Part shown: positions 36,210-53,168 of the stretch, piece after piece
Position numbering within the stretch: position 1 is the first letter of the stretch
How the letters are laid out: each line of letters starts with the position of its first letter
NCBI RefSeq assembly: GCF_016863615.1
Contig: NZ_BOPF01000034.1
Span: forward strand, 62,001 to 126,000
Reading direction: 5' to 3'
Length of the DNA stretch: 64,000 bases
Origin: Virgisporangium aliadipatigenens
GTDB taxonomy: Bacteria > Actinomycetota > Actinomycetes > Mycobacteriales > Micromonosporaceae
Position numbers and translations under genes: made by a program
The notes under the pieces: model-generated
Database searches by the model: none
What the model saw: the letters and a program-made list of their open reading frames with translations, nothing else
What the model was told of the DNA's origin: nothing

Positions 36210-38234
36210 ATGTCGCTGCACATTGGCGTGCTCGGACCGCTGGACATCCGCCTCGACGGACAACTGCGGACGGTACCCGCGGGGCGGCTGGCGACCTTTC
36301 TCGCCGGCATGGCGCTGCGGGCCAACCGCGTGGTCCCGTTGCTGGCCCTGGCCGAGGAGCTGTGGGGCGCGTCCCCGCCGCGTTCGGCCCGCTACAACCT
36401 GCGCAGCTACGCCTCGCAGGCGCGCCGCGTCCTCGGCGACCCCGACCGGCTGGTCGCCCGCGGCGAGGGCTACCTGCTGGTCGCGGCGCCCGGCGAGGTG
36501 GACGCCGAGGTGTTCGAGAGTTCGGTCAACGACGCCGCGGGAGCCCCGGCGGGCGAGGCCGGGGCGCTGCTCGGCGCGGCCCTCGGACTGTGGCGCGGCC
36601 CGGTCGCCGCCGACGTCGCGCACGGGCCGCTGATCGCCGCCCGGGCCGGCATGCTGGACGAGTTGCGGGTGGTCGCGGTGGAGGAGCACGTCGCCGCGCA
36701 ACTGCGGACCGGAGCCGCGCACCCGGCCGAGCTGGCCGCCCGCTTACGGCAGCACCTCGCCGAGCATCCTTATCGGGAACGGGCGTGGAGCCAGCTGATG
36801 CTCGCCCTGTACCGCGCGGGCGACCCGGCCGCGGCGCTGGGCGCACACGCCGCCGCCACCCGCGTTCTCGCGGAGGATCTCGGCATCGCACCCGGGCCGG
36901 AGCTGGCCGCCATGTACCGCGCCGTGCGGGACCGGGACGCCAGCGTCGCCGGAGGCACCCCGGCCGGCTGGAGCGGCGAACCGCCGCCGGTGCCGCACCA
37001 GTTGCCGCCGACGTCGGGCTGGTTCACCGGCCGGCAGGCGGAACTCGACCGGGTCTGCGGCGCCCTGCGCCCCGGTGCTGGGCCGGCCGTCGTGGTGGTG
37101 ACCGGGCCGCCCGGCGTGGGCAAGTCCGCGCTCGCCGTGACCGCCGCGCACCGCGTCGCCGAGGCGTTCCCGGACGGCCAGTTGTACGTGGACCTGTCGC
37201 CGGTCACCGCGCCCGAGCAGGTGTTGCGGCGGCTGCTGCAGGCGCTGCGCCGCACGCCCACCCCGCAGGTCGACGCCGCCGAACTGCGCACCGCCGGCTA
37301 CGGGCGCCGGCTGCTGTTCGTGCTGGACAACGCCGACGCCTTCCCCGACCTGGGCCAGCTGCTGCCGACCGGCCCGGGCTGTGCGGTGATCATCACCCGG
37401 CGCAGCGTGCCGGAGCGGCCCGCGGCGTTCCAGGTGGCGCTGGGCGCGATGCCCCTGGCGGAGGCCCGCGAACTGATCGCCCGCGTCGTCGGCGCCGAAC
37501 CGCAGCCGGACGACAGCGATGCCGTGACGGCCGTGGCGCAACGCTGCGACCTGTTGCCGTTGGCCGTTCGGGCGGCGGCCGTGCGGCTGGCCCGCAGGCC
37601 GGACCTGCCGGTGCCGGTGCTCGCGGCGCGGCTGCGCCCGCTGCGGTTCCGGCTGGACGAGCTGCGCTGCGAACTGCTCGACGTGCGCACGCACTACGCC
37701 CGCGCCTGCCGCACGCTCGGCCCCGGCACGGAAGCCCTCTGGCGGCTGGCCCAGTTGCGGGTGCCGGAGTACCGGGTGCCGGTGCTCGCGGCGGTGCTCG
37801 GCTCGGGTGTGCGCGAGGCGGAGACGGTGTTCGACCGGCTGGTCGCCGAACACATCGTGACGCCGGTTGGCACCGACCGGTTCCGGCTGCCCGATCTGCT
37901 GCGCGCCTACGGCGCCGAACTGGCCGGCTACGAGCCGACCGTGCGCCGGCACGCGGCCCTGATGCGGGCGTTCGACTGGTACGCCGCGGCGGCCGGGCAC
38001 GCGAGCGCCACCTGGCTGCGCGTGGAGCGGGAGAACCTCCTCGCCGCGATGCGCCAGGCGGCCCGCGTGCCCGGGGGCGAGAACGCCGTGCGCCGCATCG
38101 CCCGCGCGCTGCACGACAACCTGCGCCGGGGCGGCCACGAACGGCAGGCCGCGCTGGTGCGGCGCCTCGCCGTCGACGCGGCCCGCCGCAGCACCGCAGC
38201 GGCGTCGGCCTACGTGGCGGCCGGGGACGCGTAA
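36210..38234 (+). CDS. SARP-family (AfsR-like) regulator with NB-ARC domain
   Basis: The 674-residue protein starts with an OmpR-type DNA-binding domain (IGVLGPLDIRLDGQLRTVPAGRLATFLAGMALRANRVV), then a bacterial transcriptional activation domain (about 100-240), an NB-ARC ATPase with Walker A GPPGVGKS at 299-306 and LLFVLDNADAF, and a helical C-terminus. SARPs switch on secondary-metabolite genes. The usual TPR end of AfsR is short here. It is convergent with the ABC exporter operon, overlapping by 25 nt, and is the best candidate regulator of the 38.2-42.0 kb peptide locus. Confidence 0.92.
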   Translation: MSLHIGVLGPLDIRLDGQLRTVPAGRLATFLAGMALRANRVVPLLALAEELWGASPPRSARYNLRSYASQARRVLGDPDRLVARGEGYLLVAAPGEVDAEVFESSVNDAAGAPAGEAGALLGAALGLWRGPVAADVAHGPLIAARAGMLDELRVVAVEEHVAAQLRTGAAHPAELAARLRQHLAEHPYRERAWSQLMLALYRAGDPAAALGAHAAATRVLAEDLGIAPGPELAAMYRAVRDRDASVAGGTPAGWSGEPPPVPHQLPPTSGWFTGRQAELDRVCGALRPGAGPAVVVVTGPPGVGKSALAVTAAHRVAEAFPDGQLYVDLSPVTAPEQVLRRLLQALRRTPTPQVDAAELRTAGYGRRLLFVLDNADAFPDLGQLLPTGPGCAVIITRRSVPERPAAFQVALGAMPLAEARELIARVVGAEPQPDDSDAVTAVAQRCDLLPLAVRAAAVRLARRPDLPVPVLAARLRPLRFRLDELRCELLDVRTHYARACRTLGPGTEALWRLAQLRVPEYRVPVLAAVLGSGVREAETVFDRLVAEHIVTPVGTDRFRLPDLLRAYGAELAGYEPTVRRHAALMRAFDWYAAAAGHASATWLRVERENLLAAMRQAARVPGGENAVRRIARALHDNLRRGGHERQAALVRRLAVDAARRSTAAASAYVAAGDA

Positions 38235-40063
38235 CCCCGCGCCTGCAGGGAGAAGAGCCGCGCGTAGCCGCCGCCGGCCGCCATCAGCGCGGCGTGGTCA
38301 CCCTCCTCGGCGACCCGCCCCTCGGCGAGCACCACGATCACGTCGGCCGAACGCACGGCGCTCAGCCGGTGCGAGATGAGCAGGCTGCTGCGCCCCTCCC
38401 GCATCCGCATCAGGCGCACGTGCAGGTCGTGTTCCGCCTCGGCGTCGAGGCCGTTGCTCGGCTCGTCGAGGATCAGCAGGTCGCGGTCGGCCCGCAGGAA
38501 CCCGCGCGCCACCGCCATCCGCTGCCACTGCCCGCCGGAGAGGACGACCCCGGCGCCGGTGTCCGGATCGCCGTCGGCCGCCAGGTCGTCGGCGTCGAAG
38601 AAGATGCGGCTCAGCAGCGTGTCGTAGCCGCGCGGCAGGGCGGCGATCGCGTCGTGCAGCCCGGCGTCGCGGGCCGCGGCGGCGATGCGGGCCGGATCCG
38701 AGAGGGCAGGCAGGTCGGCGACGCCGATGTTCTCCGTCGCGGTCAGGTCGTACGCGGTGTGGTCCTGGAACACCGCGCCGAGCCGGGCCCGCAGCGCCGC
38801 CGGGTCGAGGTCGCGCAGGTCCACGCCGTCCCAGGTGATGCGTCCCTTCGTCGGGTCGTAGAACCGGCACAGCAGCTTCACCATCGTGCTCTTGCCGGCG
38901 CCGTTCAACCCGACGAGACCGACCGAACGTCCGGCCGGGAGGGTCAGGTCCACGCCGCGCAGCACCCACGGGTGGTTGTCCCCGTACCGGAACCACACGT
39001 CGTGAAAGACGATCCCCTCGGACAGCGCCGCGACGGGCACCGGCGACCCGGCCAGCGGCAGGTCGGGCGGCTGGCCCGTGGCGACCCGGTAGTGGTCGAA
39101 GAAGAGCAGCGCCTGGTGCATCCGGCCGGCCTGCCCGACCAGGGAACCGAGCCCGCCCTGCACCCCCGGGATGGCGGCCAGCACCAGCGCCACGCCGCCG
39201 GCCGTGATCCGCCCGTCGAACGCCGCCGCCACGGCGGACCAGATCGCGAGGCCGGCCACCGCCGCGCCGAGCAGCCCGACGAGGGACTGCGCGCGCAGCT
39301 GACGCCGGTCGAGCCCGCGGTGCTCGGCGTTCGCGGCGTCGAGTTCGGCGAGCATACGGCCGGTGAAGAAGCCGCCGAGCCCGAACAGGCGCACCTCCTT
39401 CGCCGCCTCCACGCCGGTGACCAGGTGGGTGTAGAAGCGTTCGCGCCGCTCCCGCTGCTCCATCCGCAGGAACGTGGCCGCGCGGGCCCGGCTCAGGCGC
39501 AGTTCGGCCCAGAGGCCCGGGCCGGCGGCGGCCACCACGAGAAGGGCGACCAGCGGGTGCAGGAGCAGCAGCGACGTGGCGAACCCGCCGACGGCGACCA
39601 GTCCCGCGGCCATGCGCATGAGGCCGCCGGACAGTTCGGAGGGGCCCATGTGGCCGGTCTGCTGGGCGAGCTGCAACCGGTCGTGGAAGCGCGGGTCCTC
39701 CAGCCGGCCGATGCCGGTGAGCCGGTTCACGGCGGTGAACAGCCGCTGCCGCACCAGGCGGGTCACCCGGCGGGTGATCTCCGCATCGAGGTAACGGGTC
39801 ACGTGCGGCAGCACCAGCCCCACAACGCCGGTCGCGCCGAGGGCGGCGGCCAGCGCGAGGACCCGTTCGCGGCTCGCCCGGCCCGAGGTCAGGTCGTCGA
39901 GCAGCAGCTTGAGCAGCCATGCCGTCAGGACCGGGGTGGCGCCGGTGAGCAGCGTGATCAGCAGTTCGACGACGGAACCGACGGGTGCGGCCCGCCAGCG
40001 CATGCCGGCCGCGGCGAGGCTGTGCGAGACGGCCCGCCGCGGCCCGAGGCGTTGCTGCCTCAT
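38210..40063 (-). CDS. ABC exporter, fused membrane and ATPase domains
   Basis: Starting at 40063 (ATGA overlap with the TlpA-like gene) the product is 617 residues. Six membrane helices (about 25-330) precede the ATPase with Walker A GLNGAGKST, the signature LSGGQWQRMAVARG, and Walker B DLLILDEPSNGLDAEAE followed by SHRLSAVRSADVIVVL. There is no C39 peptidase domain, so leader removal must be done by another protease; the S26 peptidase nearby could do it. The likely cargo is the cysteine-rich peptide, by context. An acidic insertion (DADDLAADGDPDTGAG) precedes the signature. Confidence 0.93.
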   Translation of the reverse strand: MRQQRLGPRRAVSHSLAAAGMRWRAAPVGSVVELLITLLTGATPVLTAWLLKLLLDDLTSGRASRERVLALAAALGATGVVGLVLPHVTRYLDAEITRRVTRLVRQRLFTAVNRLTGIGRLEDPRFHDRLQLAQQTGHMGPSELSGGLMRMAAGLVAVGGFATSLLLLHPLVALLVVAAAGPGLWAELRLSRARAATFLRMEQRERRERFYTHLVTGVEAAKEVRLFGLGGFFTGRMLAELDAANAEHRGLDRRQLRAQSLVGLLGAAVAGLAIWSAVAAAFDGRITAGGVALVLAAIPGVQGGLGSLVGQAGRMHQALLFFDHYRVATGQPPDLPLAGSPVPVAALSEGIVFHDVWFRYGDNHPWVLRGVDLTLPAGRSVGLVGLNGAGKSTMVKLLCRFYDPTKGRITWDGVDLRDLDPAALRARLGAVFQDHTAYDLTATENIGVADLPALSDPARIAAAARDAGLHDAIAALPRGYDTLLSRIFFDADDLAADGDPDTGAGVVLSGGQWQRMAVARGFLRADRDLLILDEPSNGLDAEAEHDLHVRLMRMREGRSSLLISHRLSAVRSADVIVVLAEGRVAEEGDHAALMAAGGGYARLFSLQARGYASPAAT

Positions 40064-40611
40064 GCGCTCGACGCCACCGGGATGTCCAGCCGGTCGATGG
40101 CGATGGAGCTGGTGACGACCTTCCCGAACGGGTCGAGGAGCGCGAACGCCGGCAGCCCGGTCAGCCTGAACTCCTTCGTGATCGGCCCGTTGCCCGGCTC
40201 GATGACGACCTTCGCGACGTCGCGGAACCGTTCGGCGTACTCGCCGGCCTTCTCGTCCTTGCCGACGATGACGACGAGCACGTTGTCCCGCCCGCCGAGC
40301 ATGCTGCGCGCGGCGTCGAGCAGGCCGGGGATCTGCGCCTCGCAGCGGTCGCACAGCGGCGACAGGAACGCCACCAGCCGCGCACCGGTCACGTCGTCGC
40401 GGCTCACCGGTTCGCCGTCGATCGTGGTGTTGGCGAAGTCCCCGGGTGTCTCGCCGGCGCTCAGCAGCGGGTCCTCGACCTGTTCGGCCACGGCCGTCTT
40501 GGCGAGCTGTTCGGACTGCTCACGCAGGCGCTTCAACACCCCGAGGGTGAGGATGAGGTTGAGGGTGGTCAGCACGCCGAAGATGACGACTGCCGCGGAC
40601 AGGATCCACAT
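40060..40611 (-). CDS. Membrane-anchored TlpA-like thiol-disulfide oxidoreductase
   Basis: The 183-residue protein has one N-terminal membrane helix (SAAVVIFGVLTTLNLILTLGVL) and an extracytoplasmic thioredoxin fold: VAFLSPLCDRCEAQIPGLL gives the active-site pair C87-x-x-C90, and LTGLPAFALLD supplies the cis-proline. It should exchange disulfides outside the membrane. It lies between the MauE-like and ABC exporter genes, a redox pair expected to act on a disulfide-rich product. Confidence 0.9.
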   Translation of the reverse strand: MWILSAAVVIFGVLTTLNLILTLGVLKRLREQSEQLAKTAVAEQVEDPLLSAGETPGDFANTTIDGEPVSRDDVTGARLVAFLSPLCDRCEAQIPGLLDAARSMLGGRDNVLVVIVGKDEKAGEYAERFRDVAKVVIEPGNGPITKEFRLTGLPAFALLDPFGKVVTSSIAIDRLDIPVASSA

Positions 40612-40638
40612 CGGAGCCTCCGACTTTCAAGAGGGGCC

Positions 40639-41178
40639 TCAGCGCGAACGCGGGGAGGAGACCGGCGCGAACAGGGCCACGACGTCGTCGAGCCGGACGA
40701 CGAGGGCGGCGACCAGGACACCCGAGAGCGCCGCGAGCGCGGCTCCCGCCGGTTCGACCGGATCGTCGACGAACATCCGGGCCGCCACGGCGAGCAGCGC
40801 GACCACGACGAGCCCGAGGTTGCGTGCGACGTGCACGGCGGTGACGGCGGACCCGCGCCCACCGAAGCACCGGCACACCGGCTGGGCGCCGCGCCGCAGC
40901 GACACCGCCATCGCGACGGCGAACGCCGCCAGCAGCGCGGCCGCCAGCCCATAGCCCGCGACCACGGTCGCCGGGACGGCCAGCAGCGCCACACCCACCG
41001 CCTCGCACCCGGCCACGAGCGCCGCGACGGGCCGGACGGCGCGCGCCGGCACCACGTCGAACGCCCGCACCGAGGCGACGAACTCCCGCCACGCCTCCCC
41101 GCCGTGCGCCTTGCCCCACACGGCGACGACGAACACCGTCACCACGAGGGCCCGGACCGCCACTTCGACGTATGCCAC
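40639..41178 (-). CDS. MauE/DoxX-like redox-associated membrane protein
   Basis: The 179-residue protein has four membrane helices and the paired cysteines C102 and C104 in QPVCRCFGG, the CxC motif of MauE-type proteins. MauE works in disulfide formation of methylamine dehydrogenase; it probably passes electrons between the membrane and a TlpA-like partner. It is first in the reverse-strand MauE-TlpA-ABC operon and divergent from the cysteine-rich peptide gene. Confidence 0.9.
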   Translation of the reverse strand: MAYVEVAVRALVVTVFVVAVWGKAHGGEAWREFVASVRAFDVVPARAVRPVAALVAGCEAVGVALLAVPATVVAGYGLAAALLAAFAVAMAVSLRRGAQPVCRCFGGRGSAVTAVHVARNLGLVVVALLAVAARMFVDDPVEPAGAALAALSGVLVAALVVRLDDVVALFAPVSSPRSR

Positions 41179-41235
41179 GCCGGTCCCACTCCCTTGCGAT
41201 CAGCTGAGCGATCAACAGCGCCGACCGTAGGACCC

Positions 41236-41282
41236 GCGCATACGGCGTCGATACAACGCGCCTGTACCGGCGCCGTATGCGC
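41236..41282. promoter_or_regulatory. Perfect 12-bp inverted repeat in the divergent peptide/MauE promoter region
   Basis: GCGCATACGGCG at 41236-41247 is matched exactly in inverted form at 41271-41282 with a 23-bp spacer. It lies in the 148-bp region between the start of the MauE-like gene and the cysteine-rich peptide gene, placed to control both. The protein that binds it is unknown. Confidence 0.65.
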
Positions 41283-41326
41283 GGCGCCTAGCGTGTCGCC
41301 CGATCAACGGAAGGGAGGGATTGATC

Positions 41327-41539
41327 ATGATCAAGACCATCGAATCGATGGGCTCCTGGATGCTCGGCAAGCTCGTGCCGACCGTTCAGGCGTCCGCGGC
41401 GTGCCCCCCGGATCCGTACTGCCGGGTCTGCGCCACGTGCTACCTCCAGCGGTGCTGGACGACGCCGCAGTGCGGGAACAAGTGCAACGGGTGCAACACC
41501 GGGTGCGGGCAGGCGGCCGGCGCCATCAGCCTCTGCTGA
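41327..41539 (+). CDS. Cysteine-rich precursor peptide, ten cysteines
   Basis: The 70-residue product starts at ATG 41327, 8 nt after AGGGAGG. Residues 1-24 form a cysteine-free leader (MIKTIESMGSWMLGKLVPTV, then QASA) ending in an A-x-A site fit for a type I signal peptidase. The remaining 46 residues hold cysteines at 26, 32, 35, 38, 43, 49, 53, 56, 60 and 70. The leader has no long hydrophobic core, so it is not a standard Sec signal. Divergent MauE-TlpA-ABC genes and the convergent S26 peptidase gene fit an exported, disulfide-crosslinked peptide. I do not recognise the family. Confidence 0.85.
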   Translation: MIKTIESMGSWMLGKLVPTVQASAACPPDPYCRVCATCYLQRCWTTPQCGNKCNGCNTGCGQAAGAISLC

Positions 41540-41547
41540 TCCGAGCC

Positions 41548-42027
41548 TCAGGGCTCGCCGGGCCCGTCCGGTCGTGCGGCCGGGCGGGCCTCGGCGCGTT
41601 CGGCCCGCAGGCGCGGAACCACACCGAGGAGCCGGTCGGCCGGGAACAGCCCGAGCTGGCGGGAATCCATGCTCCAGCCCGGGTTGTCGCCCAGCACCAC
41701 CAGCTGCTCCGGCGGAACCGTCTCCAGCGGCAGGTCGCGCAGCTTCGGCACCCGGGCGCGCGGCACCGGATCGCCAGGCAGCGCGAGGATCCGTTTGATC
41801 ACCAGGCCGTCGCCGTGCGGCCCGCCCGGCGGCGGATACAGCACCACCACGTCGCCGCGGCGCACCCGGCGCAGGCCGGCCCGGCGGGCCAGCACCCGCT
41901 GGCCGTTGGACAGCGTCGGCTCCATGCTCCGGCCCGAGACGCTGACCAGCACGTACGAGCGGCGCAGCCACCACAGCACCGCCCCGACGACAACGCACCC
42001 ACCGATGAACGTCAACGCCGCCCCCAT
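41548..42027 (-). CDS. S26-family signal peptidase I-like protease
   Basis: The 159-residue protein has one N-terminal membrane helix (LTFIGGCVVVGAVLWWL). The catalytic serine is S34 in VSGRSMEPTL and the general-base lysine is K79 in LVIKRILALPGD; GDNPGWSMDSRQLGLFP is box E. It is shorter than housekeeping signal peptidases. It ends 9 bp from the cysteine-rich peptide gene, convergent with it, and probably removes that leader at ASA. Confidence 0.92.
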   Translation of the reverse strand: MGAALTFIGGCVVVGAVLWWLRRSYVLVSVSGRSMEPTLSNGQRVLARRAGLRRVRRGDVVVLYPPPGGPHGDGLVIKRILALPGDPVPRARVPKLRDLPLETVPPEQLVVLGDNPGWSMDSRQLGLFPADRLLGVVPRLRAERAEARPAARPDGPGEP

Positions 42028-42055: not shown

Positions 42056-42079
42056 TTCGAATCGGCGAAGTCACCGGTC
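42056..42079 (-). promoter_or_regulatory. Shared 23-bp upstream element, copy before the S26 gene
   Basis: Read on the reverse strand it begins GACCGGTGACTTCGCCGATT and continues TCGA. The same 23 bp, with one mismatch, occurs on the forward strand at 44947-44969. Each copy lies about 30 bp before the start codon of the gene it faces: the S26 peptidase here, the FAD monooxygenase there. This copy also covers the stop codon of the LuxR gene. Confidence 0.7.
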
Positions 42080-44929
42080 CGCGCGCGCGGCCAGGATCAG
42101 TTCGGCCCGGGAGGTGACGCCCAGCTTGGCGAAGACCTTGCGCAGGTGGTAGTCGACCGTGCGCGGGCTGAGGAACAGCTGCGCGGCGACCTCCCGGTTC
42201 GTGGCGCCCTCGCCGACGATGCGCACGATCTGCACCTCCTGCGGGGTCAGCGCGGTCGCCGTGTCCGGGCGGCGCTTGCGGGCGGTCTCGCCGGTGGCGC
42301 GCAGCTCGGTCCCCGCCAGGTCCGCCCAGGGCCGCAGGCCCAGCCGTTCGAACGTCTCGTGCGCCGTCCGCAGGTGCACCCGCGCGTCCGCCCGGCGGCG
42401 CCGCCGGCGCAGCACCTCGCCGTAGAGCAGCGCCGTGCGCGCCGCGTCGAACGGCCGGCCGCCCCGGGTGTGCAGCGCCAGCGCCTCGGTGAAGTGCCGG
42501 TCGGCCGCGGAGCCCTCCGCCAGCAGGCCCTTTCCGCGGGCCACGAGCGCCGCGCCCCACACCGATCCGGTGTGGCCGGCCCACGACGCGAGACGTTCGA
42601 CCGCATGGTGGGCGAGGTCGAGGCGGTCGGTCCGGACGGCGGCCTCCACGAGATCGGCGGCGGAGAAGATCGCGACCACCGGATGCGAGTCGCCCGGCCC
42701 GGCCTCGGCGAGCGCGGCGAGGCGGTCGCGGGCCTCGTCGGGCCGCCGGCACGCCAGGTCCAGCAGGGCCAGCGCCCACCCGGCGATCCCGGCCGACGGT
42801 CCGAGCCGGTGCCCGATCGCCCGGCTGATCGCGGCCTCGGCGTGCGCCCGGCACTCGCCCTCCCGCCCGTGTACCGCATTTATCCAGGAGAGAACGGCAT
42901 GCAGGTGCGCGCCCGGATTTTCCTGACCGGTGTCGTGGGCGATGCGCAGGCCCTCCGTCGCGTTGGCGGTGGCCGCCGCGAAGCGACCCGTCCACGCCTC
43001 CAGCGACGACAGCGGGGCGAGCAGGGCCGGCAGCACGGCCGCCGCACCCGCCGAACGCGCCCGCGCCACACCCGTCGAGAACAGGCCCAACGCCACGGAG
43101 TCGTCGCCGAGGAACATCGAACCGGCCGCCGTCAGCATCACCGCGCGCAGGTCCGGCGACTGCGTCGCCCGGGCGGCCACCTCGCGCAGGTGCCCGACGG
43201 CGCGGGCGGTGTCGCCGCTCAGCAGGCGGTCCAGGCCCAGGATCAGCTCCGCACTCATCGGCACGGCCGCCTGTGCCGCTCCGCCGGTCGGCCCGCTGTG
43301 CGCGGCGGCGGTCTGTTCGTTCGGCGCGGCGGCGGGCGGGGCGCTCGGCGGGGCGGTGTGCGGGAGGGCGGCGAGGCGGGTCGCCACGGCGTGCAGGCCG
43401 CGCACGTCGCCGGCGAGCCAGGCCGACTGTCCCGCCTCGGTCAGCATGGCGGCGGCGCGCGCCGGTTCGGTGGTGGCGATCGGCTCCGCGGCGGCGACCA
43501 GGGTCGCGTAGGCGGCGGTGAGCTCGCCGCTGACCGCCGCGATCGAGCCCCGCAGGTGCGCCACCCGCGCGCGCAGCGGCACCGTCGAGGCCAGCTCGGC
43601 CGCACCGTCCACAAGGGACTTCGCCCGTTCGGGGAGGCCGGCCTGCCAGGCGGCGTCGGCGGCGTCGGCGAGGCGTTCCCCGCGCCGCTGCGCCTCCAGG
43701 GTCAGCGCGGCCGCCCGCTCGAACGCCGTCGCCGCTGCCGCGTGCCCGCCGCGGGCGCGGGCCCGTTCGGCGGAATCGTGCAGCAGCGCGGCGACCTCCT
43801 CGTCGGGCCCCAGCGCGGCCGCGGCGAGATGCCACGCGCGCCGGTCCTCGTCGGCGCCGGCCAGCACGTCGGCCAGGGCGCGCTGCGCCTCCCGCCGTTG
43901 CCAGAACGTGGCACCCCGGTACACCGCCGTGCGCACGAGCGGGTGGCAGAACGCGATGCTCCGGTCGTTCACCCGGATCAACCCGGCGCGCTCGGCGGCG
44001 TCGAGGGCGCCCGCGGCGACGCCCAGCGCGGACGCGGCGCGCAGCACCACACCGGGATCCCCGGTCTCCTCCGCGGCGGCGACCAGCAACAGCGTCTGGG
44101 TGGCGGGGTCCTGCCGGCGCACCCGGTCGAGGAAGACCTGCTCGACGTCGGCCCCGACCGGCAGCCGGCGCGGCAACGGCTCGCGGCCGGACAGCTGCGC
44201 CCCGCTCAGCGAACCCGGCAACTCCAGCAGCGCCAACGGATTCCCGGCCGTGCTCGCCACCAGGCTGTCCCGCACCGACCCGGGAAGCTCCACAGTGGAG
44301 CGTGCGGCGAGGAGCGCACCGGCCGCGGGCGCGTCCAGGCCGGCCAGCGTCAGCTCCGGCAGCCCCGGCGCGGCGAACGTCGCCGGATCGCCGTCCCGCG
44401 CCGCGAACAGCATTACCACGCCCTCGGCGTCCAACCGCCGCGCCACGAACGTCAACGCGCCCGCCGACGCGCCGTCGAGCCAGTGCGCGTCGTCCACCAG
44501 GCACAGCACCGGCCCCGACTCGGCCGCCTCGGCGAGCACGCTCAGCACACCCAGCGAGATGAGGAACCGGTCCCCGCCACCGGCCGGCCCCAGCCCGAAC
44601 GCACCCCGCAGGGCGGCACCGGGGCGCTCCGGAACGGCGTCGATGAGGTCCGCGACCGGCCGCAGCAGCTGGTGCACGGCCGCGAACGGGAACTCCGACT
44701 CGGACTCGATGCCGGTGCCGCGCAGGATCTTCCATTGTTTTCCCTCGCCGGCTCGTGCGGCGTTTCCGGCCTGTGTGGCGTCTCCGGCCTGCGCGGCGGC
44801 GTAGGCCAGCAGCGCGGACTTGCCGATGCCGGCCTCGCCGCGCAGCACCAGCGCACCACTGCGCCCCTCGACCGCCCCCGCGAGAAGGGCGTCCACGGCC
44901 GCGCACTCGTCGGTCCTGCCGTACAGCAC
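42071..44929 (-). CDS. Large ATP-binding LuxR (LAL) regulator
   Basis: I start it at GTG 44929 (VLYGRTDECAAVD), the usual opening of LAL proteins, giving 952 residues. An AAA-type ATPase domain with Walker A GEAGIGKS (31-38) and VLCLVDDAHWLD leads into a long helical repeat region and a C-terminal LuxR HTH (LTPQEVQIVRIVGEGATNREVAAQLFLSPRTVDYHLRKVFAKLG). A longer start at 45001 would overlap the divergent monooxygenase ATG. TAGACT 7 nt before the GTG suggests a leaderless mRNA. It is flanked by inverted copies of a 23-bp sequence. Confidence 0.9.
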   Translation of the reverse strand: MLYGRTDECAAVDALLAGAVEGRSGALVLRGEAGIGKSALLAYAAAQAGDATQAGNAARAGEGKQWKILRGTGIESESEFPFAAVHQLLRPVADLIDAVPERPGAALRGAFGLGPAGGGDRFLISLGVLSVLAEAAESGPVLCLVDDAHWLDGASAGALTFVARRLDAEGVVMLFAARDGDPATFAAPGLPELTLAGLDAPAAGALLAARSTVELPGSVRDSLVASTAGNPLALLELPGSLSGAQLSGREPLPRRLPVGADVEQVFLDRVRRQDPATQTLLLVAAAEETGDPGVVLRAASALGVAAGALDAAERAGLIRVNDRSIAFCHPLVRTAVYRGATFWQRREAQRALADVLAGADEDRRAWHLAAAALGPDEEVAALLHDSAERARARGGHAAAATAFERAAALTLEAQRRGERLADAADAAWQAGLPERAKSLVDGAAELASTVPLRARVAHLRGSIAAVSGELTAAYATLVAAAEPIATTEPARAAAMLTEAGQSAWLAGDVRGLHAVATRLAALPHTAPPSAPPAAAPNEQTAAAHSGPTGGAAQAAVPMSAELILGLDRLLSGDTARAVGHLREVAARATQSPDLRAVMLTAAGSMFLGDDSVALGLFSTGVARARSAGAAAVLPALLAPLSSLEAWTGRFAAATANATEGLRIAHDTGQENPGAHLHAVLSWINAVHGREGECRAHAEAAISRAIGHRLGPSAGIAGWALALLDLACRRPDEARDRLAALAEAGPGDSHPVVAIFSAADLVEAAVRTDRLDLAHHAVERLASWAGHTGSVWGAALVARGKGLLAEGSAADRHFTEALALHTRGGRPFDAARTALLYGEVLRRRRRRADARVHLRTAHETFERLGLRPWADLAGTELRATGETARKRRPDTATALTPQEVQIVRIVGEGATNREVAAQLFLSPRTVDYHLRKVFAKLGVTSRAELILAARADR

Positions 44930-44946
44930 GCTGCGGAGTCTATGCC

Positions 44947-44969
44947 GACCGGCGACTTCGCCGATTCGA
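44947..44969 (+). promoter_or_regulatory. Shared 23-bp upstream element, copy before the monooxygenase operon
   Basis: It begins GACCGGCGACTTCGCCGATT and differs at one base from the reverse-strand copy at 42056-42079. It sits in the 70-bp divergent region between the LuxR gene and the monooxygenase, 30 bp before the latter's ATG. Confidence 0.7.
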
Positions 44970-44999
44970 CCGCGTTCGATTTTTCGCAGGCTGGTGCCC

Positions 45000-46418
45000 A
45001 TGAATTCCGCTGATGTCATCGTTGTCGGCGCCGGCCCCACCGGCCTCGCCCTCGCCTGCGAACTCGCCCTGGCCGGCGTGCGGGTGCGCCTCCTCGAACG
45101 CCGCGCCGAAGAATCCAACATCACCCGGGCGTTCGCCGTGCACGCCCGCACCCTCGAACTGCTCGACGCCCGCGGCCTCGCCGACGAGGTGCTGCTGCGC
45201 GGCGTGCGGATCGACGGCGTCGCCCCCGTCCCCGGGGCCTACCTGGACCTCGGCATCCTGGACACCCGCTACCCGATGCTGTGCATCGCGCCGCAGAGCG
45301 CCACCGAGAAGGCGTTGCAGGCGCGGGCGTCGCGGCTCGGGGTCGCGATCGTGCGGGGCGCCGTCGTCACCGCGCTCGAGCAGGACCCCTCCGGCGTGAC
45401 CCTGTCCCTCGCGGACGGTTCGCGGGAACGGGCGGACTACGTCGTCGGCTGCGACGGCGCGCACAGCACGGTGCGCACGCTGATCGGGGTGCCGTTCGCC
45501 GGCAAGGAGTACGAGACGCACATCCTGCTGGCCGACGTGCGGCTGGCCGAGCCGCCGGCCGAGGCGATGTTCGCGCGCACCAACACCGAGGGCGCGGTCA
45601 TCTCGGTGCCGTTCGGGGACGGCTGGTTCCGCGTCATCGCCTGGGACCGCAGCCGCGAACGGGCACCGCTGTCCGAGCCGGTCACCCGCGACGAGATGGT
45701 CGACGCGTTCCGGCGCATCGCCGGCGGCGACCTCGGCATGGGCGAGCCGCGCTGGAGCACCCGCTTCCTCAGCGAACGCCGGCAGGCCGCGAAGTACCGC
45801 GTCGGACGGGTGTTCCTCGCCGGCGACGCCGCCCACGTGCACTCGCCGCTCGGCGGCCAGGGCATGAACACCGGCATCCAGGACGCGATGAACCTCGGCT
45901 GGAAGCTCGCCGCCGCCGTGCGCGGGACGGCCGCCGCGGAGCTGCTCGACACCTACGAGTCCGAACGCCACCCGGTCGGCGAGAAGGTGCTGGCGCTCAC
46001 GGACACGTTCAACCGGCTGGTGCTGGGGCGCTCGAAGCTGCGCAACGTGGCGCAGGCGGTGGTGATCCGGACCGTGCTGCGCTTCCACCGCACCCGGCTC
46101 CTCATGGCCGAACGCCTCAGCGGCATCGGCATCGCATACCCGTCGAACGGGCACTCGTGGGTCGGCCGGCGCATGCCCGACGTGGACTGCGACGGCGGCC
46201 GCCTCTACGAACTGATGCGGGACGGCCGGTTCGTGCTGCTCTCTCGCGACACCCCGGCGGAACTCCCGTCGACTGTCCACTGTGTACGGTCGCTCGCCGC
46301 CGGGCTGCCGGATTACGTGCTGGTGCGCCCCGACGGCTACGTGGCCTGGGCCGGCTCCGTGCTCGATCCGGCGGCGATCGCCCGTTGGTGCGGTCCGGTG
46401 CCGGCGGTGCGCTCATGA
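45000..46418 (+). CDS. FAD-dependent aromatic hydroxylase-type monooxygenase
   Basis: The 472-residue protein has the PHBH-class motifs: DVIVVGAGPTGLALACELA for FAD binding, DYVVGCDGAHSTVR (DG motif), and FLAGDAAHVHSPLGGQGMNTGIQDAMNLGWKLA (GD motif). A C-terminal thioredoxin-like remnant (LVRPDGYVAWAG) fits the PheA/TetX-like long branch. It hydroxylates an aromatic or polyketide substrate; which one is unknown. It heads a three-gene operon with 4-nt overlaps and is divergent from the LuxR regulator. Confidence 0.92.
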   Translation: MNSADVIVVGAGPTGLALACELALAGVRVRLLERRAEESNITRAFAVHARTLELLDARGLADEVLLRGVRIDGVAPVPGAYLDLGILDTRYPMLCIAPQSATEKALQARASRLGVAIVRGAVVTALEQDPSGVTLSLADGSRERADYVVGCDGAHSTVRTLIGVPFAGKEYETHILLADVRLAEPPAEAMFARTNTEGAVISVPFGDGWFRVIAWDRSRERAPLSEPVTRDEMVDAFRRIAGGDLGMGEPRWSTRFLSERRQAAKYRVGRVFLAGDAAHVHSPLGGQGMNTGIQDAMNLGWKLAAAVRGTAAAELLDTYESERHPVGEKVLALTDTFNRLVLGRSKLRNVAQAVVIRTVLRFHRTRLLMAERLSGIGIAYPSNGHSWVGRRMPDVDCDGGRLYELMRDGRFVLLSRDTPAELPSTVHCVRSLAAGLPDYVLVRPDGYVAWAGSVLDPAAIARWCGPVPAVRS

Positions 46419-47875: not shown

Positions 47876-47920
47876 TGTGAGCCGATGACCGGCGGTCACC
47901 GCCGGGGCACCCTGACGGTC

Positions 47921-50900
47921 ATGACACACGGCATGACGGGGGAGAACAGCACGGCGTACGCGTGCCCGCGATGCGGCGCGGTCGCGGACATCGTGCGGGG
48001 ATGCCGGACCTGTGGGAGCCCGCCGGAGCCGGAGGCGCCCGAGGTGGCGCGGCTGCGCGACGAGATCGACGGGCTGTCCGCCGAGGCGCAGACCGCGTGG
48101 CTGCGGCACCACGCGCTGCTCGGGCAGCTCGGGGCGGCGAGGGGGCGCTTCGAGTCGCTGCTCGGCATGATCCGGCAGCGATCCCTCGCGTCGGCGGCCG
48201 GCCCCGTGCCCGTGCCGCCGCCCGGCTTCGCCCCACCGTCGTCGGGTGCCCCGGCTGCCACCGCCCCGGCCCCTGGTCCGTACGGCGGCCCCGTCCCGAG
48301 CGGCCCGAGCGGCCCCGCTGTCCCGGGTGGGCCTGGCGTGGGTGGTGTGGGCGTCGGCGGTGGGTGGCCGGCGCACCACAGCCGGGGACCCGCGCCGGAG
48401 GCGTCGCCGCTGACCGTGCAGACGCTGCTGTTCGTGCTCGGCGGCCTGCTGTTGGGCGCTGCCGCGATCGTGTTCACGGCGGTGGCGTGGGCGAACTTCG
48501 GCGCTGGCGGGCGGGCGGCCATCCTGACGGCGTTCACCGTTCTGGCGCTGGCCGTCGGTCCGATCGCCCGACAGCGTGGGCTCGCCGGGACGGGTGAGAC
48601 GTTCGCGGCGCTGGGGCTGCTGCTCGTGCTCCTCGACGGGTGCGCCGCACGGCTGCTCGACGTGGCGGCCGTCGACGCGATCCCGCTGGCCAGGTACATC
48701 GGCGGGGTGTGCGGCGCGACAGCGCTCATCGCGGCCGGCTACGCCGCGGCGACCGGGCTCGTCGGGCCGCGCTTCGTGGCGCTGCTGATCGCGCAGCCGG
48801 TCCTGCCGCTGCTCGTGGCCGAACAGCGGCCGAGCCCCGCCGGATGGGTCGCCGCGTTCGCGATCGTCGCCGGCCTCGACGCGACGGCCGCGACGGTCGG
48901 CTCCCGTTGGGCTGACGTGTCCGGCGCGGTGCGCGGGTTCCGGGTCACCGGTTGGCTCCTCTTCGTGCCGAACGCCGCCCTTGCCGGCATCCTCGCCGTG
49001 CTCGCCTTCGCGGGCGCCGGCCGGAGCGAATGGGTCGGGTCGCCGCTGCTGGCCGCCACGCTACTGGCCGCCGTGCTCGGGTACGCCGGCGCCCGCAGCC
49101 GGAACGCTGCCGTCGCCGCCCTGCTCACCGCTGTCGCGGTGGCCGGCTGGACCGGCGGGGCGGCGCGGGTGATCGCGGTGTCGTGGCCCGGGTACGCAAC
49201 GGTCGGGATCGCGGCGTTGACGCTGTCCGTGGCACTCGCGGTGGCCCTGCCCGCCGCCGTCGCACCGGTGGCGGGTGGTCCGGGCGGGGCCGGTGGCGGC
49301 GGCGGTACGTCGCCGGGTGTGCTCGCGGGCGGTGTCGTGTCGTCGGCTGCGTCGGTGGCCGGTGGTCCCGGGCCGGGTGGGCTCGGGGTGGCGGTGGCGT
49401 GGAGCGGCGGCGTGCTCGGCGCGATCCGGCGGGGCGCCATGGCCGGGGTGCTGTTCGTGGCGGGGTGTGTGGCGCTGGTGCTCGCCAACTCGGCGCTGAC
49501 CGGTGCGGCGTTCACGGCGGCGCTCGGGCTGCCGGCGTGGCGGGACGGGGCCGATCCGGCGCGGCTGTACGACTGGCAGTTGCCGGTGTCGCTGGTGCTG
49601 GTGGCGGGGGCGTTCGCGGTGGCGCTGTGGCGGATCGTGCCGCGCGGCCGTGCCGCCGTGCCGGCGCCGGCCGCCGTGGGGATCGTCGGTGGGGCGCTGG
49701 TGGTGTTCGCGGTGCCGGTGTCGTTCGCGACGGTGTGGTGGACACCGTCCTTTGTGGACGGTCTGGTGGCCGTGCCGTTGGCGCTCGCGGCGGCGCGGGT
49801 CACGTCGCGGCGCGCGGCTCACCTCTGCGGCGCGGGCGCGGGTGTGCTCGTGGCGCACGCGGTGCTGGTCGGGTTGGGGCGTCCGGCGGGGACGGCCGGA
49901 GTGCTGGCCGGTGTGGTGGCGCTCGGGATCGTCGTCGGGTGGTTCGCGCGGGTGCCGGCGGTACGCGCCGTGACCGTCGCCGCGGTGGTGCTCGCGGTGC
50001 CGGCATTGGCCGCCGCCCTGGGCGAACTGCTCGCCGCGCCGGCTGTGCTGCTCGACACCCCCGTGGCCTCGGTGTGCGCGGTCGTCGCCTCGGTGGGTGT
50101 CGCGGGTGGGCTCGCGGTGCCGCGGGTGGCGAGGGAGCCGTGGGCGATGGCGGGCGGGTTCGCGTCCGCGGCCGCCGGAGCGGGTGTGACGGTGGCGGCC
50201 GTCGCGGTGCCCGGGGTGCCGTTCGGGGTGGTGGCCGCCGTCGAACTGCTCTGTGCCGTCGCGCTCGCCCTCGTGCTCGGCCGGCGTGTGCCGGGCGGGA
50301 CCCGTGCGCTCGGTGCGGCCGCGCTGCCGGTGGGCGGGGCGCTCGCGGTGGCCGTCGCGCCGACCGTCGGTGCGTTGCTGTTCGGGCCGTACCGCTGGGC
50401 CGGTGAGGTCTGGAGCGGGGCCGTGGTCGGGGTCGGGCTCGCGCCGGGCCGGTCGGGGTACGGCGGCGTCGGTGGTCCCTTCGGGGTCGGGCCGGCCGCG
50501 GTGTCGCTCGCGATTCTCACCGTCGTGGTCGGGCTCGTCGCCCGGGCCTACGCGACCGGGCGGATCGCCGCGTCGGCGGGCTGGGCTCCCGTGGCGGCAG
50601 GGGCCCCGGAGGCGTTGTCCGGGCCGCATCCCGCGCCGGGCGGGACGGTGCCGGCGGACGGAGCGGCACCCATGCCCGCCGGCGTCGCCCACGAGCACCG
50701 TCCACTGTGGACCGTGTTGCGGGCGACCCTGCCGTTGGCCACGTTGACCGCGCTCGCCGCGTGTGCCGCGCTCGGCGCGCAGTGGCCGGCCGTCCCGATC
50801 GTCAGCCTGGCCGGCGGCCTCGCGGCCGTTGTGCTCGCCGCGTTCGGCCCGCGTCCGGAGCGGTTCGCCGTCGGTGGTGTGCTCGCGTGGGGTTCGGTCG

Positions 50901-51817
50901 CGGCGGGGTTGGCGGGGTCGCTCGCCACGCGCCCGATGACGCTCTCCGCGCTCGGCGCGATCGTCGCCGTGGGCGGGATCTGCGGTGCGGTCGGGCGTTC
51001 GGTGCCGGTTCGCGTGACGGGGTGGCTCGTGGCGGGCGCGAGCGGGGTCGCCCTGGGGCTGGCCGCCGGCCGGGCCGCCGACCTGCCGCTGCATCTGGTC
51101 GCCTACTGCGTGCTGGGCGCGGCGGCGGTGCTGCTGGCCGGTTCGGCTGTGGTGCGGCGCCGTCCTGAGTGGACGGTCCTCGAGGCCGCGGGGCATGCGG
51201 GCGCCGCGGTGGCGTTCCTGCTCGCGGGCGGGCGGCTCGGGCACGCCGCGGGCGTGTGCGGGCTGTGGGGGATCGCCGTCGGGCTGCGGGCACTGCGCGC
51301 TGCGGGGGACGGTCGCCGTTCCCGCGTGGTCGCCGCCACTCTGGTCGAACTTCTCGCGTACTGGTACCTGCTCGCCGCCAACGATGTGGCGCTGGTGGAG
51401 GCGTACACGGTGCCGAGCGCCGCGGCGGCGGTGTTCGCGGGGTGGACGGTCGCGAAGCGGCGGCCGGGCCTGTCGAGCTGGTCCGCGTACGGGGCCGCGC
51501 TGTTGGCCGGGTTCGGGCCGAGTGTCGCAAGTGGACTGGCGCAGGAGGGCGACCCGGTGCGCCGCCTCGCGCTGGGCGTCGCGGCGGTAGCCGTGGTGCT
51601 CGTGGGCGCGAAGTGGCGGCTGCGCGCGCCGTTCGTGGTGGGTGGTGCCGTGCTCGTGCTGGTGGCGTTCCATGAAATGGTCCTGATCTGGGATCTTGTG
51701 CCGCGATGGGCGCCGCTCGCGATCGGCGGTCTGGCACTGGTCGCCGTGGCGACGACCTACGAGCGGCGCCGGCGCGATCTCGACCGCCTGCGCGGCGCGG
51801 TCGCGCGAATGCGCTGA
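47921..51817 (+). CDS. Giant multipass membrane protein, SCO7613 C-terminal type
   Basis: The product is about 1,298 residues from ATG 47921; starts at 47885 and 47933 are also possible. An N-terminal zinc ribbon (CPRCG...CRTCG) and a short coiled coil (RLRDEIDGLSAEAQTAWLRHHALLGQLGAAR) precede a Pro/Gly-rich linker and more than thirty hydrophobic helices separated by Gly/Pro-rich loops. It resembles the actinobacterial family annotated as SCO7613 C-terminal domain membrane proteins, of unknown function. A palindrome (CCGGCGGTCACCGCCGG) just after 47885 argues for the later start. Confidence 0.8.
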   Translation: MTHGMTGENSTAYACPRCGAVADIVRGCRTCGSPPEPEAPEVARLRDEIDGLSAEAQTAWLRHHALLGQLGAARGRFESLLGMIRQRSLASAAGPVPVPPPGFAPPSSGAPAATAPAPGPYGGPVPSGPSGPAVPGGPGVGGVGVGGGWPAHHSRGPAPEASPLTVQTLLFVLGGLLLGAAAIVFTAVAWANFGAGGRAAILTAFTVLALAVGPIARQRGLAGTGETFAALGLLLVLLDGCAARLLDVAAVDAIPLARYIGGVCGATALIAAGYAAATGLVGPRFVALLIAQPVLPLLVAEQRPSPAGWVAAFAIVAGLDATAATVGSRWADVSGAVRGFRVTGWLLFVPNAALAGILAVLAFAGAGRSEWVGSPLLAATLLAAVLGYAGARSRNAAVAALLTAVAVAGWTGGAARVIAVSWPGYATVGIAALTLSVALAVALPAAVAPVAGGPGGAGGGGGTSPGVLAGGVVSSAASVAGGPGPGGLGVAVAWSGGVLGAIRRGAMAGVLFVAGCVALVLANSALTGAAFTAALGLPAWRDGADPARLYDWQLPVSLVLVAGAFAVALWRIVPRGRAAVPAPAAVGIVGGALVVFAVPVSFATVWWTPSFVDGLVAVPLALAAARVTSRRAAHLCGAGAGVLVAHAVLVGLGRPAGTAGVLAGVVALGIVVGWFARVPAVRAVTVAAVVLAVPALAAALGELLAAPAVLLDTPVASVCAVVASVGVAGGLAVPRVAREPWAMAGGFASAAAGAGVTVAAVAVPGVPFGVVAAVELLCAVALALVLGRRVPGGTRALGAAALPVGGALAVAVAPTVGALLFGPYRWAGEVWSGAVVGVGLAPGRSGYGGVGGPFGVGPAAVSLAILTVVVGLVARAYATGRIAASAGWAPVAAGAPEALSGPHPAPGGTVPADGAAPMPAGVAHEHRPLWTVLRATLPLATLTALAACAALGAQWPAVPIVSLAGGLAAVVLAAFGPRPERFAVGGVLAWGSVAAGLAGSLATRPMTLSALGAIVAVGGICGAVGRSVPVRVTGWLVAGASGVALGLAAGRAADLPLHLVAYCVLGAAAVLLAGSAVVRRRPEWTVLEAAGHAGAAVAFLLAGGRLGHAAGVCGLWGIAVGLRALRAAGDGRRSRVVAATLVELLAYWYLLAANDVALVEAYTVPSAAAAVFAGWTVAKRRPGLSSWSAYGAALLAGFGPSVASGLAQEGDPVRRLALGVAAVAVVLVGAKWRLRAPFVVGGAVLVLVAFHEMVLIWDLVPRWAPLAIGGLALVAVATTYERRRRDLDRLRGAVARMR

Positions 51818-51820
51818 TTC

Positions 51821-52963
51821 CTAGGGGAGGCGCCACTTCTGGTTGGCGCCGGTGTGGCAGTCGTACAGCACCAGCGGCGTGCGGTCGGCCGGGTTGGCGC
51901 CGGAGACGTCGAGGCAACGGCCGGACTGCGGGTTCTGCAACTGCAGTGCGGCCGTGGCTCTCCACTGTTGTGCGCCGCTGGTATTGCACGTGTACAACTG
52001 CACCCTCGTGTAGTTCGCGGTGCCGGCGTCGGCGACGTCGAGGCACTTGCCGAGCGCGCGGATCGTGCCGTCGGTGCCGATCGTCCAGCGCTGCGCGGCG
52101 CTGGTGTTGCAGGTGTACAGCTGCACGACGGTCCGGTCGGCGGGGTTGGCGCCGTCGACGTCCATGCACTTGTCGGCGAGACCGACGACCGGGCCGACGC
52201 GCGGGGTCGGTTCGGTGCTGCCCGGCGCGTGGAACGTGATCGTGAAGCCGGAACAGTTGGCGCACTGGCGCATCACCTGGTTGCCGGGCTCCTGGTCGTG
52301 CCGGGACCACGAGTAGGCGTAGGGGCACTGGGCCTTGAGCGCCTCGCTGTACGGGGTCTGCGCGTCGCGGTTCGGGTTGGTGCAGAGCATCCGCGCGCCG
52401 GTGCTCGGGTGGTACGTGACGTTGCCGGCCGGGCAGTACGGCAGCAGGTCCTTGGCGCAGCCCATGACCTGACAGGATCCGCCGCCCGGCGGGGGAGCCG
52501 GCGCGTTGTCGGGACTGATCGTGATCGGCAGCGAGAACGCGTTCACGTAGCTGACGTTGTACCAGGGGGCGAGGCCGTCGCCGGGGTCGAAGTTGAACTC
52601 CGCGAGGCTGCTCGGCTGTTCGCCGGTGGTGCAGCGGTCGGCGTACACGCCGCAGTCGCCCACGAGACAGTGGAACGTGCTGCCGGACGCGCCCGTGCAG
52701 CCCTGCCGGGCGAAGAACTTTCCGCGCCAGTGCCCCGGGGCGACGTTCTCCGGGATGGTGATCGTGGCGGACTGACCGGGGGCGAGGGTCGGCAAACCGG
52801 TGAGCGACGCGGACCCGTCCGCGTTGACGGTGCTGCCGATCCAGATCGTCTGGTTGGAACTGTTGACGAACCGGACGGTGTGCGGGACGGCCGCGGCGGC
52901 GGGTGGCGGCGCGAGCACGAGGCTGGCCCACAGGAACAGCCCCAGGGCGACGAGTTTGGACAC
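51821..52963 (-). CDS. Secreted thaumatin-like protein with ricin-B (CBM13) lectin domain
   Basis: A GTG at 52963 with GGGGAGG before it gives 380 residues. A signal peptide (KLVALGLFLWASLVLAPPPAAAA) is followed by a cysteine-rich thaumatin-like domain (about 26-240; TVRFVNSSNQTIWIGSTVN, CRGKFFARQGCTG-like, LVGDCG, LAEFNFDPGDGLAPWYNVSYV). A ricin-B trefoil ends the protein, with QxW motifs AQRW, AQQW and NQKW. Thaumatin-like proteins often bind or cut beta-glucans, so an anti-fungal or fungal-wall-binding role is possible. Confidence 0.9.
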   Translation of the reverse strand: MSKLVALGLFLWASLVLAPPPAAAAVPHTVRFVNSSNQTIWIGSTVNADGSASLTGLPTLAPGQSATITIPENVAPGHWRGKFFARQGCTGASGSTFHCLVGDCGVYADRCTTGEQPSSLAEFNFDPGDGLAPWYNVSYVNAFSLPITISPDNAPAPPPGGGSCQVMGCAKDLLPYCPAGNVTYHPSTGARMLCTNPNRDAQTPYSEALKAQCPYAYSWSRHDQEPGNQVMRQCANCSGFTITFHAPGSTEPTPRVGPVVGLADKCMDVDGANPADRTVVQLYTCNTSAAQRWTIGTDGTIRALGKCLDVADAGTANYTRVQLYTCNTSGAQQWRATAALQLQNPQSGRCLDVSGANPADRTPLVLYDCHTGANQKWRLP

Positions 52964-53168
52964 GGATGACCTCCCCAGAAAGGCGTGAGCGGGGAGGCTC
53001 GCTCGTGCGCACACCGTAACAGGCATCGATGTGCGCTGATACGACGTTTCGTTCCCCGGGAAATCCCTGGGTTCGGCCGTCCGCGGAGACCGGGGATTTC
53101 ACCGGCGTCAAGCCGCCCCTCGATCCATACCGTCGATGGCACGCAGACAACTTGGAGGAGGGTGCGTC
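52964..53168. other. Leader region of the phage-tail operon
   Basis: No gene is seen. The region separates the reverse-strand thaumatin-like gene from the forward tail operon and should hold its promoter. CATACC near 53126 is a possible -10. GAAATCCC at 53060-53067 is inverted at 53093-53100. A strong ribosome site (GGAGGAGG) lies before the ATG at 53169. Confidence 0.4.

Follow-up and report, generated by a model that had tools for sequence, protein, structure and literature searches.

What is made by the genes lying between positions 36,210 and 42,027 of the Virgisporangium aliadipatigenens DNA considered here, a stretch of 64,000 nucleotides that is referred to as the window? An earlier note on this DNA had drawn attention to a small cysteine-rich peptide encoded at 41,327-41,539, and to neighboring genes for MauE-like and TlpA-like membrane proteins, an ABC exporter, a peptidase of the S26 family, and a SARP-type regulator. 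The analysis described below suggests that the peptide quite probably belongs to a family of ribosomal, disulfide-rich secreted peptides, and that the surrounding cassette would make, export, trim, and oxidatively fold it.

The peptide reading frame begins with the ATG at position 41,327, is preceded by a purine-rich stretch resembling a ribosome-binding site, and ends with a stop codon at 41,539. Upon re-reading of the sequence, the precursor proved to be as the earlier note had described it, namely a 70-residue chain with a cysteine-free leader ending in ASA, followed by 46 residues that contain ten cysteines. The leader, MIKTIESMGSWMLGKLVPTVQASA, is delineated by residues 1 to 24 (41,327-41,398, plus strand), with the ASA motif at residues 22 to 24 forming the predicted A-x-A cut site. 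The predicted mature core together with the stop codon extends from 41,399 to 41,539 on the same strand. Its translation positions all ten cysteines within residues 25 to 70, the first of them not before residue 26. The calculated monoisotopic mass of this predicted core is 4799.98 when reduced and 4789.91 with five disulfides. No Pfam or NCBIfam family matches the peptide up to an E-value of 1, and a search of the PDB sequences to the same limit gave no match for either the peptide or the MauE protein. The PHROGs search provided a single weak match with an E-value of 0.028. When 17 precursors of the family were compared with NCBIfam, none matched, and the comparison with Pfam yielded two single-member matches (0.04 and 0.074), which were taken as chance.

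The pattern of conservation in this gene is distinctive. Across 12 aligned ten-cysteine precursors, none of the ten cysteines changes. In 11 Micromonospora strains the dN/dS ratio is 0.12 for the leader and 0.33 for the core, which indicates purifying selection, and the variable columns comprise none of the ten cysteines, 5 of the 24 leader positions, and 22 of the 37 other core positions. In an alignment of 17 diverse precursors, Pro 18, Ala 22, Ala 24, and three cysteines are invariant. The window family thus displays a gene-encoded precursor with a conserved leader and a variable core, the arrangement by which ribosomally synthesized and post-translationally modified peptides (RiPPs) are recognized.

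Is the peptide gene tied to its neighbors in other genomes? With the single window sequence as the query, a contig scan of named genomes gave no match. With an alignment as the query, 11 named Micromonospora loci were retrieved, three of which lie in the same genomes as loci already sampled. Matches to the peptide were observed in 13 of 200 genomes sampled from the family of the window, the Micromonosporaceae. Among 354 Micromonosporaceae genomes, 137 have a match to the ABC protein of the window with an E-value no higher than 1e-120; in a phylum sample of 396 genomes there are two, that of the window and a genome designated G222. The peptide profile is strong in the same two genomes, with an additional weak match in G535. 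The ABC protein of G222 was, in turn, observed with an E-value of 1e-130 in 33 of 200 genomes of a second family, which we infer to be the Streptomycetaceae.

Co-occurrence was examined in 40 Micromonosporaceae loci, about every second row below the 21 best among the matches listed (two were passed over, one for its closeness to a contig end and one because it was in the set before). From the 47 loci listed for the second family, 20 were examined, mostly those with the better scores. A profile of the leader located the peptide in 32 of the 40 loci at 3.7 kb or less from the ABC gene, three of them with E-values of 2e-3 to 6e-3. Inspection added L124 (1.3e-3), L110 (5.9e-3), and L113, which is not significant by profile and was called from its position and cysteines only. 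In total, 35 of the 40 loci have a small gene rich in cysteines no more than 4 kb from the ABC gene, four of these calls having weak leader scores and one none; in the second family all 20 loci have the peptide, the profile locating it in 19 and inspection in the last. As controls, the 40 loci were resampled once (first-order), and the remainder of the window and nine short loci (4.5-4.8 kb) of more distant ABC exporters were scanned; the leader profile matched nothing in any of them. Given these controls, the invariant cysteines, and the leader and core dN/dS values, the peptide gene is more than a chance open frame.

Within the stretches examined, the 35 peptide loci all contain S26 and TlpA genes (35/35 for each), and in the second family the S26, TlpA, and MauE genes are all present in 20 of 20 loci. 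The earlier note had proposed a search of genomes for a cysteine-rich gene beside MauE, TlpA, and S26 genes. That arrangement was indeed encountered at the 35 of 40 and 20 of 20 ABC loci, with the reservation that MauE is local in only 27 of the 35. All six genes are present in each of the seven first-tier orthologous loci, L017-L023. These adjoin pheT or pheS in 7/7 cases, and in three of them argC flanks the opposite side; the window copy is located elsewhere. Clustering of the neighboring genes from 50 loci produced the ABC (43), TlpA (31), SARP (27), and S26 (27) families, followed by those of graspetide-type loci at five and four. Note that this clustering is insensitive; it missed even MauE, so that enzymes that are rare or divergent may have escaped it as well. 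The cassette also occurs on linear plasmids of Streptomyces and Embleya, where a precursor was found in four of four loci, one of them weakly. On the linear plasmid of Streptomyces clavuligerus (L178), it contains two six-cysteine precursors annotated as hypothetical proteins. The genome from which the window comes carries a further cassette with a six-cysteine peptide (L036, contig C26) and a third ABC copy (L067, contig C9) accompanied by MauE, TlpA, and SARP genes, at which no S26 gene or convincing leader peptide was found.

The precursors number 99 from 90 loci, or 74 after removal of redundancy. In all 74 the first 20 residues are free of cysteine, and in 72 the motif A-x-A precedes the core, the remaining two having VQA and VEA. 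The leaders are amphipathic, with a mean z of 1.38 against shuffles. The best ten-residue Kyte-Doolittle mean is 1.04 for the window leader, and the family has a median of 1.2 and a range of 0.06 to 2.26. As judged from hydropathy, there is no hydrophobic signal core before the cut site of the kind associated with Sec export, and the leaders would mostly be too weakly hydrophobic for that route. The cores contain from 4 to 12 cysteines per scaffold in 67 distinct spacings among the 74 precursors. The number of cysteines is even in 71 of the 74, and in all 23 precursors of the second family. Relative to 272 unrelated small frames with at least six cysteines, 178 of which have an even number, the 68 of 71 observed here correspond to p = 7e-10 in a test that counts related peptides as independent. 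An even number of cysteines would fit full pairing in disulfides. Two or three different precursor genes per locus, some resembling tandem duplicates, were seen in L161 (7141-7730), L165, L178, L099, and L103.

Apart from that of the TlpA-like protein, the identities that the earlier note had assigned to the neighboring genes were confirmed by profile matches, and all of the genes are intact. Homologues of the cassette proteins were collected by tblastn across 83 loci. The ABC exporter, a fused permease-ATPase of 617 residues (38,210-40,063, minus strand), matches PF00005 with an E-value of 3e-26 and falls just under the gathering threshold for PF00664. Its Walker A, Walker B, signature, and H-loop residues are kept in 82 of the 82 homologues found. 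No C39 peptidase domain is among its Pfam matches, which separates it from the transporters of double-glycine bacteriocins. The S26 leader peptidase, of the signal-peptidase-I type (41,548-42,027, minus strand; PF10502 1.5e-20, TIGR02227 2.5e-21), contains the Ser-Lys dyad in SMxP and KR boxes, and both the serine and the lysine are present in 76/76 homologues found. The MauE-family membrane protein (40,639-41,178, minus strand) matches PF07291 with an E-value of 2e-21 and 77.1 bits versus a gathering threshold of 27. It contains the sequence CRCFG, and the CxCFG motif is retained in all 69 homologues found. The membrane-anchored TlpA/thioredoxin-like protein with the sequence CDRC (40,060-40,611, minus strand) is assigned on the basis of its CxxC motif and of profile scores below gathering (PF13905 1.5e-5, 25.6 versus 27); it weakly matches solved thioredoxin-family and DsbF proteins, the best at 4e-5. 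The first cysteine of the motif is present in 80/80 homologues found and the second in 78/80. Neither an ATP-grasp maturase nor a lanthionine synthetase was identified among the cassette proteins of the window by the Pfam scan.

The SARP-family regulator (36,210-38,234, plus strand) displays BTAD (PF03704, 3.7e-33) and NB-ARC (PF00931, 2.2e-8) domains. Rather than standing at the border, where the earlier note had placed it, it is a recurrent member of the cassette, with a homologue in 7/7 of the first-tier loci, and is probably the activator. SARPs are known to bind 11-bp direct repeats beside the -10 box. Read in either direction, the intergenic region has two TGTA-type repeats spaced by 11 bp ahead of a -10 box. 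The leftward element, which combines a putative SARP operator with the -10 of the MauE-TlpA-ABC operon (41,224-41,255, minus strand) and is modeled on the usual architecture of such sites, has GTAT repeats at 41,240-41,243 and 41,251-41,254, 11 bp apart, and TACGGT at 41,224-41,229. The rightward element, a putative operator and -10 of the peptide gene (41,262-41,294, plus strand) drawn from an alignment of 13 upstream regions, has CTGTACC and CCGTATG with an 11-bp period at 41,262-41,279 and TAGCGT at 41,289-41,294. In 1.39 Mb of loci there are 19 matches to a strict form of the pattern versus 0.0 expected, and 16 of the 19 lie just upstream of a peptide gene, an enrichment that is partly circular because 13 of these same regions served to define the pattern. 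Two of the 19 matches come from duplicate genomes, and close orthologues account for most others; four distant loci, L036, L065, L122, and L123, provide independent support. The strict form precedes only 16 of 70 peptide genes, which suggests that distant members use variants or other control, and the window itself has the loose form only.

A perfect 12-bp inverted repeat had been proposed in the earlier note to control the divergent promoters. The perfect repeat is in fact 14 bp, CCGCGCATACGGCG, with a 23-nt spacer; imperfect 28-nt arms are located at 41,228-41,255 and 41,263-41,290. Among the upstream regions of 12 orthologous loci, the repeat is not kept in this form. In L040 there is a 12-bp inverted repeat built of the same ATACATCG elements, and the other orthologous regions have 9 bp or less. 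The inverted repeat was ruled out as the operator given that the direct repeats are conserved and it is not, and the best reading of it is that two divergent promoters meet here.

Taken together, these features point to the following scheme. The SARP would activate both divergent operons via the 11-bp direct repeats. The dedicated ABC transporter would export the precursor, which has a short amphipathic leader and no Sec hydrophobic core, with the leader still attached. Cutting after A-x-A would then fall to the dedicated S26 peptidase, with its active site expected to face outward. At the outer face of the membrane, the TlpA-like protein through its CxxC motif and MauE through its CxC motif may drive or proofread the pairing of the ten cysteines, probably into five disulfides, to yield a knotted peptide of ∼46 residues and 4.8 kDa. 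The earlier description of the locus as a complete set for making, folding, exporting, and trimming a peptide is strongly supported by comparison of the loci. What the comparison establishes is gene content, conservation, co-occurrence, the invariance of motifs, and the even parity of the cysteines, whereas the route of export, the position of the cut, the disulfides, the direction of electron flow, the regulation, and the activity are predictions.

Several observations weigh against this scheme or against the strength of its support. MauE is locally missing in 8 of the 35 peptide loci, and the second TlpA cysteine is lost in 2 of 80 homologues, the closely related pair L037 and L158; the redox pair may thus be replaceable. 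The leader proline is missing in 9 of the 74 precursors, three have seven cysteines, and three have four. The search profiles were built from the peptide family itself, and the parity test, as noted above, does not correct for relatedness. The AlphaFold prediction for the ten-cysteine group (12 sequences) has a pLDDT of 51.5 and no usable fold. No immunity or tailoring gene recurred in the insensitive neighbor clustering, and the lack of immunity genes belongs on the same side. Some peptide genes are not accompanied by the full set: in genome G082 these are L025, with a SARP gene only, L026, L028, and L030, and in genome G009 it is L029, with an S26 gene only. The earlier note had held that peptide homologues apart from these neighbors would speak against it. 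Such genes do exist, but both genomes carry a cassette elsewhere. The dispersed peptides of G082 have a similar core pattern, and there is only one strong cassette ABC in that genome (L064), which suggests that one machine serves several precursors.

The converse case, neighbors conserved without a cysteine-rich gene, was encountered in 5 of the 40 ABC loci (L101, L105, L106, L120, and L135), and all five are of the graspetide type. They share a homologous frame of 95-96 residues, which in four of them adjoins an ATP-grasp maturase frame, and they have no A-x-A leader. The one maturase that was scanned matches TIGR04187 with 311.5 bits, below the cut-off of 350, and the one precursor scanned matches no NCBIfam model, so the term graspetide-type is used in a provisional sense. 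No S26 gene was found in any of the five; TlpA and MauE are each present in four, and L135 has neither. A midpoint-rooted tree with SH-aLRT support, built from 82 transporters, places these five loci in one clade (98) nested among the others and interleaves the Micromonosporaceae with the second family. The clade is consistent with a single capture of the transporter and loss of S26. The joint absence of S26 and the A-x-A leader speaks for the scheme. This support is tempered by the single clade, which is consistent with one loss of S26 rather than five.

If the peptide is made and folded in the way proposed, what is it for? An antagonistic, bacteriocin-like weapon is most likely. It is possible, if clearly less probable, that the same biosynthesis delivers an intercellular signal or a developmental or surface peptide, a role favored by SARP control, by strong ABC matches numbering as many as three in a genome (scoring covered only three candidates in each), and by the lack of a recurrent immunity gene in the insensitive clustering. 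The hypervariable cores behind a conserved leader, the interleaved transporters of two bacterial families, and the carriage on plasmids look more weapon-like. At L027, L132, and L133, a large FtsX/MacB-like permease adjoins the cassette; it is possibly for self-protection, but rare.

It is unlikely that the cysteines bind a metal or an iron-sulfur or copper center, as in a secreted chelator, with TlpA and MauE keeping the thiols reduced or handling the metal. Several cores do contain CxC and CxxC pairs, and in other systems proteins like TlpA act as reductants too, yet the 67 spacings do not fit one metal site, the even numbers in 71 of 74 precursors fit pairing, and no metal-uptake family recurred in the insensitive neighbor clustering. 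Equally doubtful is a RiPP bearing further enzymatic cross-links (lanthionine, ester, and the like) installed by enzymes encoded elsewhere, with the disulfides incidental. The 5 of 40 graspetide-type loci described above do have transporters of this family, most of them beside TlpA and MauE, and the annotation of the S. clavuligerus locus places an ATP-grasp protein ∼3.6 kb past S26, but the recurrent neighbor families are only ABC, TlpA, SARP, and S26 (27 or more of 50 loci in the same insensitive clustering). It is highly improbable that the peptide is just an ordinary small protein rich in cysteines, of the Sec-secreted or lipoprotein type, that lies beside the ABC gene by chance: although A-x-A resembles a signal peptidase site and AGC the end of a lipobox, the leader has no hydrophobic core, the peptide co-occurs with the ABC gene, and the lipoprotein version is ruled out by the lack of a fixed position for the cysteine after A-x-A and by a peptidase of the S26 type.

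Other features of the window lie beyond the cassette. A large LuxR-type regulator with an AAA_16 domain (42,071-45,151, minus strand) adjoins it and is absent from the recurrent neighbor families of the insensitive clustering. Farther along, a very long open frame (47,885-51,817, plus strand) is found in a stretch with an AT skew near -0.44, and the frame that adjoins it (51,821-53,026, minus strand) appears thaumatin-like by eye.

Were the scheme correct, relatives of Micromonospora and some Streptomyces would hold a large and almost unannotated reservoir of disulfide-knotted peptides, with the genes for their export and folding grouped together. The cassette would provide a library of peptide scaffolds with its own folding and export system for cysteine-rich peptides, as well as a tractable model for the function of MauE proteins. 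The leader profile and the rule of A-x-A with even cysteines allow for immediate genome mining. Whether the family is the bacterial counterpart of venom superfamilies is an evenly balanced question. On that reading, one chassis of conserved leader, exporter, S26, and MauE-TlpA would support disulfide scaffolds by the dozen, each with its own spacing, and these would pass between the Micromonosporaceae and the Streptomycetaceae, and on linear plasmids, as an antagonistic arsenal. Such peptides would form a Sec-independent class, which a dedicated enzyme of the signal-peptidase type would release and the MauE-TlpA pair would fold.

How does the cassette compare with known systems? Pediocin-like bacteriocins, sublancin, and bactofencin are exported small disulfide peptides with dedicated thiol oxidoreductases, and they have double-glycine leaders and C39 ABC transporters. 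The window family, in contrast, employs S26 and MauE proteins and contains up to 12 cysteines. In cinnamycin-type lanthipeptides the precursor leader ends in A-x-A, as it does here, but the window has a dedicated S26 peptidase and no lanthionine synthetase, and none of the latter recurred in the insensitive neighbor clustering. The graspetides, which are ATP-grasp omega-ester RiPPs with a TIGR04187-like maturase, are represented by loci whose transporters are nested in the window ABC family, with TlpA and MauE in 4/5; they differ in having another precursor and an ATP-grasp maturase, with no S26 found and no A-x-A leader. The maturation of methylamine dehydrogenase by MauE and MauD shares a MauE-family membrane protein with the cassette, whereas the client here is a small exported peptide, and no methylamine dehydrogenase family recurred nearby in that clustering. 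MauE works with a second Mau protein and has been speculated to make the disulfides of the enzyme subunit (PMC7794033, citing van der Palen et al. 1997). It is from this link that the proposed role of MauE in oxidation is taken here.

The earlier note did not recognize the system as a described class, a view that stands in part. No study characterizing such a product, and no paper treating MauE, TlpA, and RiPPs together, was found in an open-access library. The decRiPPter study (Kloosterman et al. 2020, PMC7794033) had, however, flagged three candidate RiPP families of Streptomyces that contain mauE (and mauD in one of them) and whose precursors have at least eight cysteines, and this kind of locus had thus already been noticed computationally. 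The window matches them by its MauE protein and ten-cysteine precursor, and they are likely identical with the family described here, as compared by description rather than by precursor sequence. In the portions of that article concerned with these families, they are not united by a leader, cysteine parity is not noted, only Streptomyces is mined, and no S26 cut site is named, the term S26 occurring zero times in the main text. What the present comparison would add is a single family that spans two bacterial families, with a common leader and predicted cut site, an even cysteine number, and a putative operator, together with an apparent single capture by graspetide-type loci.

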